Below, piece after piece: positions 11,938-15,201 of a stretch of 64,000 nucleotides of DNA (its first letter is position 1; each line of letters opens with the position of its first letter). Origin of the DNA: Caulobacteraceae bacterium (GTDB lineage: Bacteria; Pseudomonadota; Alphaproteobacteria; Caulobacterales; Caulobacteraceae). Location: the NCBI GenBank assembly GCA_947475875.1, contig CANJME010000004.1, positions 62,001 to 126,000 on the forward strand, in the 5' to 3' direction. The notes below the pieces were generated by a model. That model saw only the letters and a list, made by a program, of their open reading frames with translations, did not search any database and was not told the origin of the DNA. The translations under genes were made by a program, and so were the position numbers.

Positions 11938-12702
11938 TTATTTCCGGATCTCTTCCAGCGCAGCCCCGTACCAGGCCACCGCCTGATCGCGCAGTTCCGG
12001 CCGGAAGGCTGAGCGCGGATCACTCGCGCCCTCATCGTCGAACGCGTGGGTGGCGTCGGGAAAGACCAGCCGGTTGACCGTCAGGCCGTCCCGCTCCAGC
12101 CGGTCGAGGGCGAGGGCCGGATAGCGCACGCCCACCACCTGATCCTTGCCGCCCAACAGGCCATAGACCGGCAGTCTGACTCCGTTCCAGCCGCGCTGGC
12201 GGGTCATCGAAGGGTAACTGGCATAGGGATAGACCAGCACCACGCCCGCGAGGCCATCGAGCGGTCGGGGCGGCAAGTCGGTCAGGCCGGTAAAACTGGG
12301 CCCGCGCTCACCCATCGCCAGGCCGTCCATGATGGTCCAGCCGCCATGGCTCCAGCCGCAGGCGACGATGCGGTCCCTGACCAGCCATGGCTGGCTGCGC
12401 GCCCAGTCAAAGAGCGCATAGAGATCGGCCGCCCGCTCGCATCCGTACAGCTGGATCCCGGTGCAAACGGTCAGACTGGCCGAGAGACGGCTCAGGCCCC
12501 GCGGCTTGAAGGAATCGACGATCATCACCGCATAGCCGGCCGCGAGCGCCCGCTCGGCATAGACCTCCTGGAACGGGCGCAGGCCGCCGCAACCGTGAAA
12601 CTGCATCACCAGCGGAAAGGGGCCAGGCCCGGGCGGCTTGCGGACCTGCGCGGCTGACAGCAGCCGCTGAGCCCATTCGGCGCGGGTGACGCCTCGGCTC
12701 AA
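11938..12702 (-). CDS. Dienelactone-hydrolase-like alpha/beta hydrolase
   Basis: Alpha/beta hydrolase of 254 residues. The oxyanion-hole segment HGCGG is at 36-40, the nucleophile elbow is GWSHGG (S118), followed by a candidate acid in GGKDQVVG (about 190) and the catalytic His in DATHAFDDE (about 222). Family members cleave esters or lactones; the substrate here is unknown. There is no signal peptide. The only start near the fold is TTG 12702, which overlaps the purH stop codon by 4 nt (TTGA), so it is probably translated from the purH message. The C-terminus ends just before a strong hairpin. Confidence 0.78.
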
Positions 12703-14291
12703 TGGCGAAAGACCCTGACACCGGTAAAGGCCATGGCGATGCCGGCTGCGTCGGCGGCGGCGATGACCTCGTCGTCGCGGATCGAGCCGCCCGGCTGGAT
12801 CACCGCCGTGGCGCCGGCCTCGGCCGCCTGGATCAGGCCATCGGCGAAGGGGAAGAAGGCTTCGGACGCGCAGGCGCAGCCCGAAAGATCGAGGCCGAAA
12901 TCATTGGCGCGCAGGGCCGCGATGCGAGCGGAATCCTTGCGGTTCATCTGCCCGGCGCCGACGCCCAGGGTCTGGCCGGCTTTGGCGTAGACGATGGCGT
13001 TGGATTTCACGTGCTTGGCGATGGTGAAGGCAAACAGCATGTCGCGCACTTCGGCATCGGTGGGCGAGCGCTTGGTGACCACCTTGAGGTCGGCGGGCGA
13101 GAGCCGGGCGTCATCGCGGCTTTGCAACAGGAACCCGCCTGAGACGGATTTGAAGGTCCAGCCCGGCGCCAATGGATCGGGCATGCCATCGGTCAGCAGC
13201 AGGCGGACGTTCTTCTTGGCGGCGAAGAGGGCGATGGCGTCATCATCGGCGCCGGGCGCGATCACCACTTCAGTGAGCAGCTTCAGCACTTCGGCGGTCG
13301 TTGCCGCGTCCAGCCGCTGGTTGACGGCGATGATGCCGCCGAACGCTGAGGTCGGATCGCAGGCGAGGGCCCGGAGATAGGCGTCCTTCAGGCTGGGGCC
13401 CGTGGCCACGCCACAGGGATTGGCGTGCTTGATGATCGCGCAGGCCGGGCCTGCCTTGGGATCGAACTCGGCGATCAGCTCGAAGGCGGCATCGGTGTCG
13501 TTGATGTTGTTGTACGACAGTTCCTTGCCCTGGACCTGATGGGCGGTGGCCACACCGGTCCGGGCGTTCTCGAACCTGTAGAAAGCCGCCTTCTGGTGCG
13601 GGTTCTCGCCATAGCGCATGGTCTGGACCAGGGATCCGGCGATCGCCTTGCGGGCCGGGAAATCCTCGCCCAGCTGCTCGGCGAACCAGCCTGAAATCGC
13701 GGCGTCATAGCCGGCGGTGCGGGCGTAGGCTCGGGCGGCAAGGTCCTTTCGCAACGCCAGATCCGTGCAGCCGTCTACCTGCATTTGCGCCAGCACGCGT
13801 TCCATGTCGGCGATCTCGGTGCAGACACAGACATAGCCGTGGTTCTTGGCGGCCGAACGGATCATGGCCGGCCCGCCGATGTCGATGTTCTCGACGCTTT
13901 CGTCGAACCCGGCGCCCTTCGCGACCGTCGCCTCGAAGGGGTAGAGATTGACGTAGACGAGGTCGATGCCGCCGATCTTGTGCTCAGCCATGGCGGCCGC
14001 ATGCTCGGGGGCGTCGCGGTAGGCCAGGATGCCGCCGTGGACGATGGGATTGAGGGTCTTGACCCGCCCGTCCATCATCTCGGGAAAGCCGGTCAGGTCC
14101 GCCACGTCCTTCACCGGCAGGCCGGCGTCGGCGATGGCCTTGCGCGTGCCGCCTGTGGAGACCAGTTCGACGCCGAAGCCGACCAGTGTCGTCGCCGCCT
14201 CGATCAGACCGGTCTTGTCGGAAACCGAGATCAAGGCGCGCTTGATCGGCGTGCGGTCAGGGGCGGGGGGAAAGCTGGGCGCAGCGGGCAT
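12699..14291 (-). CDS. purH: Bifunctional AICAR transformylase/IMP cyclohydrolase
   Basis: Catalyses the last two steps of IMP synthesis, 530 residues. The N-terminal MGS-like cyclohydrolase domain shows [40 protein letters not shown] and NLYPFEATV. The C-terminal transformylase domain has [30 protein letters not shown] and the C-terminal [15 protein letters not shown]. The start is ATG 14291 with AAGGAG seven bases upstream; the frame continues further but that part is not coding. A ZTP-type riboswitch lies in the leader, fitting control by the substrate ZMP/AICAR. Confidence 0.97.
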
Positions 14292-14319
14292 CTGACGTCT
14301 CCTTGACGGTTCGGAAAGC

Positions 14320-14392
14320 TCGCCCAGGCGCACGGCGTAAAGGCCCCGCGCTCCCCGGTGGTCAGCCACCCAAGCGCCAGTCACGTGAGGCA
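14320..14392 (-). ncRNA. ZTP (pfl) riboswitch in the purH leader
   Basis: Reading the minus strand toward purH, the conserved pfl-motif pieces occur in order: CGTGACTGGCG (14385-14375), a short helix TGGGTGGCTGACCACC closing into CCACCGGGGAGCG (14361-14349), a variable linker, and CGCCTGGGC (14330-14322). From memory these are the invariant parts of the ZTP/ZMP-sensing riboswitch, known from purine and one-carbon genes including purH. Its 3' end is about 30 nt from the purH ATG, between it and the AAGGAG ribosome-binding site, so translational control is plausible. A covariance-model search was not possible here. Confidence 0.85.
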
Positions 14393-14517
14393 AGCCGGTG
14401 AATAAGGCGCGCCGAAAGTCTGAGTCAACGGCGCCTGCACTTTGCCTGGGGATGATTATGCCGTTAGGGAACAAATCCCGGAAATTGTCTGCTTTCGCGC
14501 CCGAAGCGAGGTCCCGC

Positions 14518-15201
14518 ATGAGCATCGTTGTTCGAAATCCGCCGCGCGCTGATGCGGCTGTGATCGACGGCCTGGCCGCCCTGGGCGTGGCTACGGTGCA
14601 CGAGGCGCAAGGGCGCATCGGCATGCTGGCGGCCAATATGCGGCCGATCTTCCCCGCCCACATCGCCGGCTCGGCGGTGACTTGCCAGGTGGCTCCCGGC
14701 GATAACTGGATGATCCACGTGGCCGTCGAGCAGTGCGGGCCAGGCGACATTCTGGTGGTGGCGCCCACCTCGCCCTGCGAGGACGGGTTCTTCGGCGATC
14801 TTCTGGGCACCTCGGTGCAGTCACGCGGCGTGCGCGGGCTGGTGATCGACGCGGGCGTGCGCGATGTCGCCGAGCTGACGGCGATGAACTTTCCGGTCTG
14901 GTCAAAGGCCGTCTGGGCGCAAGGCACGATCAAGGAGACGCTGGGCCATGTGAACACTCCGATCGTCTGCGCCGGGGCGCTCGTCGAGCCGGGCGATGTG
15001 ATCGTCGCCGATCAGGACGGGGTCGTCGTCGTCCGGCGGCGGGACGCCGCGTCAGTGCTCGAAAAATCCCGGGCCCGCGAAGCCGACGAGATCGAAAAGC
15101 GCGCCAGGTTCAAGGCGGGCGAGTTGACCCTGGACGTTTTCAACATGCGCGAGAAGCTGGCGGCGAAGGGGCTGAAATACATAGACTATGAGGGCAATTA
15201 A
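14518..15201 (+). CDS. 4-carboxy-4-hydroxy-2-oxoadipate/HMG aldolase (LigK/RraA-like)
   Basis: Class II pyruvate aldolase of 227 residues with the RraA-like fold. [11 protein letters not shown] (about 23-33), [20 protein letters not shown] (93-97) and DAGVRDV with the metal-binding R115-D116 closely match my memory of LigK/GalC, the last enzyme of protocatechuate 4,5-cleavage and gallate pathways. Start is ATG 14518 with GAGG seven bases before it; the frame open from 14398 overlaps the divergent purH leader. No other aromatic-degradation gene is visible here, so it may act in a dispersed pathway or as an oxaloacetate decarboxylase. It lies between purH and the heparinase-like gene on the opposite strand. 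Confidence 0.88.

Follow-up and report, generated by a model that had tools for sequence, protein, structure and literature searches.

The question raised by this locus was whether the purH gene of a Caulobacteraceae bacterium is preceded by a riboswitch that senses the substrate of the encoded enzyme and, if so, at which step such an element would act. The window analyzed was a stretch of 64,000 nucleotides (nt) of contig CANJME010000004.1 (assembly GCA_947475875.1, positions 62,001 to 126,000 of the forward strand), and all coordinates below refer to it. A first-pass annotation had assigned the interval 14292-14517 to a ZMP/ZTP (pfl) riboswitch controlling purH, probably at translation, and had suggested a check with the Rfam covariance model. 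When this model, RF01750 (ZMP-ZTP), was run, it matched the minus strand from 14394 to 14315 and scored 58.9 bits, well above the gathering score of 39. The match spanned model positions 1-86 of 86, that is, the full length, with an E value of 5.2e-7 for the 64-kb window against 4227 Rfam families and of 5.5e-9 in a whole-genome search. It was the sole Rfam match at the gathering level within the window and the one RF01750 match found in the whole genome (2.85 Mb, 49 contigs). The class assignment was therefore borne out by the covariance model. The interval originally given proved to cover all of the DNA from purH to its divergent neighbor; the aptamer proper lies inside it.

The three conserved pieces quoted in the annotation were all located on the minus strand in the proposed order: CGTGACTGGCG at 14385-14375, CCACCGGGGAGCG at 14361-14349 and CGCCTGGGC at 14330-14322. 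The distance from the end of this conserved core to the purH ATG at 14291, which had been put at about 30 nt, was exactly 30 nt, and 23 nt separated the model match from the purH start on the same strand. The identity of the downstream gene was confirmed by protein models, with equivalog scores of 655 bits for TIGR00355 (cut-off 528) and 732 bits for NF002049 (cut-off 402) and with the Pfam domains AICARFT_IMPCHas and MGS (PF01808, PF02142). Among the 80 named loci listed, the closest PurH relatives were from Caulobacter (76-77% identity), in agreement with an origin in the Caulobacteraceae. It is thus likely that a ZTP-class riboswitch constitutes the 5' leader of purH, and by analogy with its family its ligand would be ZMP/ZTP. 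The association of this class with purH has already been published: in the part of the pfl motif paper drawn on here, purH is among the five most commonly associated genes (PMC2864571). The aptamer is accordingly an ordinary further example of a well-known class and of low surprise.

The core structure of the aptamer was also intact. The J1/2 and L3 strands of the pseudoknot were complementary in 123 of 123 loci, the locus set being the matches listed from searches of the family, the order and the class. The pairing was GGCG/CGCC in 118 loci, including that of the window, and GACG/CGUC, a compensatory change, in 5; in this count the search pattern prescribed the outer two letters, so that variation could show in the middle two, and the loci are mutually related. 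In the described ZTP riboswitch, according to the part of the study cited, a U in the P3 loop contacts ZMP (PMC7337938); the U at 14326, directly after the L3 strand, is a candidate for this residue, its placement being tentative. The 3' strand of P3 is the strand that can change partners.

Within the family, 76 of 149 genomes had an RF01750 match at E <= 0.001, 72 of them above the cut-off; the corresponding figures were 40 of 200 (37 above it) for the order and 21 of 385 (all 21 above it) for the class. By tblastn, purH lay downstream in 75 of the 123 aptamer loci, a set chosen by aptamer presence, so that its counts do not show how often such regulation occurs in nature. A chance resemblance, or another kind of structured RNA, has a negligible probability and is refuted, as far as sequence and structure go, by the E value against 4227 families, by the recurrence of purH downstream and by the compensatory changes seen in the pseudoknot across the larger set of loci.

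As to the step that is controlled, an intrinsic-terminator platform was considered and rejected: in 14200-14620, where 0.3 terminator-like sites were expected, none with a stem and an adjoining T run was found. The distance from CTGGGC to the start codon was 29-45 nt in 74 of the 77 leaders listed. A strict scan for E. coli-type promoters gave nothing; a TTGAC element emerged by comparison alone. In 61 of 74 purH leaders (1 of 75 purH loci had been dropped by the length or duplicate filter), it stood 29-34 nt ahead of the first base of the aptamer, whereas in 500 mononucleotide shuffles it fell at that distance in 0.46 leaders on average and in 4 at most; since the leaders are related, these are not independent events. 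In the window, the candidate promoter predicts a transcription start near 14394-14392, about 7 nt past TTATTC, which coincides with the 5' end of the aptamer. The conserved TTGAC distance therefore indicates that the aptamer is probably at or near the 5' end of the mRNA, and the leader would likely run from about 14394 to 14292, or about 100 nt.

Comparative folding provided some support for masking of the Shine-Dalgarno sequence. In many relatives, a GGAG...GCC segment just ahead of the start codon can pair with the sequence that begins at the P3 3' strand, and in L011 this would give a helix of eleven pairs; the GCC is part of the masking helix in these relatives. After removal of duplicates, 69 unique leaders were used in the duplex swap tests and 72 in the linker-shuffle test; L116, with a mis-picked start codon, did not enter the tests on leaders. 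Own duplexes were more stable than swapped ones, averaging -11.4 kcal/mol as opposed to -10.3 kcal/mol (0 of 5000 permutations), and 51 of 69 leaders had an own duplex better than the mean of their swaps with other genera. In the linker-shuffle test, native linkers folded onto the Shine-Dalgarno region more strongly than their shuffled versions: the mean z was -1.38, with 58 of 72 leaders below 0, and the genus means averaged -1.01 (14 genera, t-test p 0.007). A masking helix across the ZTP-purH leaders of the relatives is thus moderately supported as a prediction of folding.

A number of results, both among the relatives and in the window itself, weigh against this masking. The swap test, which appeared decisive at first, was rejected as a proof of covariation: with one leader per genus the signal disappeared (mean z -0.55, the stability of the own pairs being equaled or surpassed in 31% of permutations), and controls slid by -14, +14 and +28 nt gave z of -5.1, -2.0 and -3.2. 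The swap signal is therefore partly explained by relatedness or overlap. In a simple comparison of locked and unlocked aptamers, the Shine-Dalgarno sequence was predicted to be mostly paired either way (mean unpaired 0.10 free, 0.21 locked), and exposure rose by more than 0.2 on locking in just 17 of 72 leaders. The GCC before the start codon was rejected as a riboswitch-specific mark because it also occurs in purH leaders without the riboswitch (for example L133-L135). In the window leader, the own duplex reached -7.8 against -10.6 for swaps, 91% of partners being better, and the linker z was 0.09. The stability of the whole leader was ordinary (z -0.31, an uninformative score), and its minimum-energy fold was not the aptamer, the program being blind to pseudoknots. 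The masking hairpin of the window was predicted by RNAfold with up to 12 coding bases; with at least 18, it was displaced by a competing fold, a stronger prediction in which CUGGGCGAGC pairs with codons 3-6 and the Shine-Dalgarno sequence is largely open without ligand. Under these conditions, the latter was unpaired at 0.72 in the ligand-free state versus 0.13-0.42 in the locked state, the reverse of what masking predicts. Support for masking in the window leader itself is weak, as far as folding predictions go, because the coding sequence offers this competing fold.

The hairpin that CUGGGCGAGC is predicted to form with the start of the coding sequence, at -20.9 kcal/mol, also bears on the possibility of transcriptional action. 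In that case the unbound leader would expose a Rho loading site or a site of pausing or termination, either within the leader or early in the coding region, and the ligand would prevent this. Such a strong predicted hairpin would be an alternative to P3, like the terminators in other members of the class. However, no stem with a T run is present in 14200-14620, and the short spacing and the trend of the linker to fold onto the Shine-Dalgarno sequence fit a translational platform, so that transcriptional action is considered unlikely. The fold of CUGGGCGAGC with the codons also uses the P3 strand, and in this model the ligand would still compete with it.

Control at translation is favored because there is no terminator-like site, the gap to the start codon is short and the linker tends to fold onto the Shine-Dalgarno region. 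Hence, the view of the first-pass annotation on this point holds with moderate strength as the best reading of leader anatomy and comparative folding, although the stricter swap control gave no signal and the masking hairpin is weak here. The mechanism would be as follows. On a shortage of 10-formyltetrahydrofolate, ZMP (5-aminoimidazole-4-carboxamide ribotide, AICAR, the PurH substrate) and its triphosphate ZTP would build up and be bound by the aptamer, so that both P3 and the J1/2-L3 pseudoknot would be held in place. In the ligand-free state, the 3' strand of P3 would be able to pair, together with the bases next to it downstream, around the ribosome-binding site and decrease purH translation; with ligand, the strand would be held in P3 and translation would increase. 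The ON direction of this switch is suggested by analogy.

The same-genus genomes were compared at this locus. In G211 the aptamer is kept, with 59.9 bits. In G222 (L154, G222:C136:28500-31500), no aptamer was found at purH by the family search or by a rescan with a permissive Rfam threshold. This rescan covered the purH loci of 13 of the 30 genomes without a family match, G222 included, together with that of G211; no hidden aptamer was found at the 13 loci, and at G211 it matched L075. The distance from TTGACT to the start codon was 36 nt in G222 versus 137 nt in the window and 134 nt in G211, which suggests that in G222, a single imperfect genome (93% complete, purH match in two pieces), the leader has been lost and the message may be near-leaderless. 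That the leader can be lost, as G222 indicates, and that the masking hairpin is weak in the window would agree with the aptamer being a relic that has lost its control over purH, or with binding without effect. The full-length 58.9-bit match, the intact core and pseudoknot and the retention of the aptamer in G211 speak against a relic, which appears highly improbable. For the Caulobacteraceae as a whole, a compact architecture can be proposed tentatively, with somewhat less than an even chance of being right in all its parts: an aptamer at or near the transcription start, a P3 3' strand that masks the purH ribosome-binding site, a translational ON switch and a leader of about 100 nt that is evolutionarily dispensable, one same-genus genome having an apparently near-leaderless promoter instead.

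If the riboswitch reading is right, purH of this Caulobacteraceae-like genome is under direct feedback from the substrate of PurH, and these well-conserved short leaders would be suited to testing how an aptamer is wired to translation rather than termination. As a single finding, the riboswitch was to be expected.

The features of the locus are collected in the table. The divergent gene that bounds the upstream gap encodes an aldolase. At L075, the long reading frame that ends upstream of the aptamer differs from the aldolase and runs on the purH strand.

Table. Features of the purH leader and of the adjoining genes in the window.
Feature	Position	Strand	Basis
purH, bifunctional AICAR formyltransferase / inosine monophosphate (IMP) cyclohydrolase	12702..14291	-	TIGR00355, NF002049, PF01808, PF02142
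Candidate hairpin masking the core of the Shine-Dalgarno sequence, UUUCC (14317-14313) / GGAGA (14302-14298)	14298..14317	-	RNAfold
Shine-Dalgarno AAGGAG, 7 nt ahead of ATG	14299..14304	-	sequence
ZMP/ZTP riboswitch aptamer (RF01750)	14315..14394	-	cmscan covariance match
P3 hairpin, CGCC (14337-14334) / GGCG (14324-14321)	14321..14337	-	hand count from cmscan structure line
L3 strand CGCC of pseudoknot	14327..14330	-	sequence; pairs with J1/2
J1/2 strand GGCG of pseudoknot	14375..14378	-	sequence; pairs with L3
Candidate promoter TTGACT (14428-14423), 17-nt spacer, TTATTC (14405-14400)	14400..14428	-	comparison of purH leaders
4-carboxy-4-hydroxy-2-oxoadipate aldolase (LigK/PcmE type)	14518..15201	+	TIGR02798, 343.9 bits (cut-off 304.5)

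The targets of the remaining aptamer loci were assigned by short motifs as 1 purH at a contig edge, 19 DJ-1/PfpI-type, 12 glyA, 9 LysE and 2 folD genes and 5 that were other or unreadable. A Pfam check of 10 representatives agreed for nine of them (DJ-1/PfpI 4, LysE 3, SHMT 1, folD 1) and showed a phosphatase-like protein at the other. DJ-1/PfpI-family genes were directly downstream at L003, L004, L007, L012, L020, L021, L023, L024, L026, L027, L029, L030 and L121-L123 (genus g13) and at L055, L058, L064 and L070. In genus g13, which belongs to the same order, this target was present in 15 of 16 aptamer loci and purH in none. LysE-type exporter genes followed the aptamer at L016, L019, L025, L060, L066, L067, L095, L098 and L099; in six genomes of genus g4, the LysE-associated aptamer was a copy apart from the purH one. 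It may be speculated that LysE-linked aptamers represent an export valve tied to folate stress. Among the papers listed by a literature search on DJ-1 and LysE targets, none was recognizable by title as one on riboswitches; those listed for the associated genes included one riboswitch review. The purH leaders L112, L113, L114, L118 and L119 of genus g4 had an apparent extra insert between the aptamer halves. Their covariance fit was poor (35-40 bits), apparently because this insert splits the halves, the 3' half CGCCTGGGC being present further down.

In the open-license literature on the ZTP riboswitch, purH, Caulobacter, Alphaproteobacteria and translation, no study of the window leader was recognizable by title or abstract start. 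The validation of the pfl class as ZTP riboswitches is summarized in a review, in the part cited here (PMC7266159), and a study of the Clostridium beijerinckii switch, in its cited part, speaks of purH-regulating ZTP riboswitches (PMC10085676). In the consulted part of a Pseudomonas aeruginosa reporter study, a ZTP riboswitch from Pectobacterium was placed in a translational fusion to lacZ, which alone is no proof of translational control (PMC10117056). The element of the window resembles the ZMP/ZTP riboswitch, or pfl motif (RF01750), in its full-length covariance match, its J1/2-L3 pseudoknot and its purH target. In the transcriptional ZTP riboswitches, as the cited parts of the studies describe them, the ligand-free RNA breaks P3 and the pseudoknot and builds a terminator, which ZMP prevents (PMC7337938, PMC10687018, PMC7484762). 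The pfl members described in these sources act by an intrinsic terminator, whereas the window leader has no terminator-like site; the shortness of its spacer and the probable location of its aptamer at the 5' end suggest translational control, unlike in the terminator members. Competition for a P3 strand would be shared with the switches of Thermosinus carboxydivorans, Fusobacterium ulcerans and C. beijerinckii, but the partner of this strand in those switches, as far as these sources describe them, is a terminator arm, whereas in the window the candidate partner is the ribosome-binding region.
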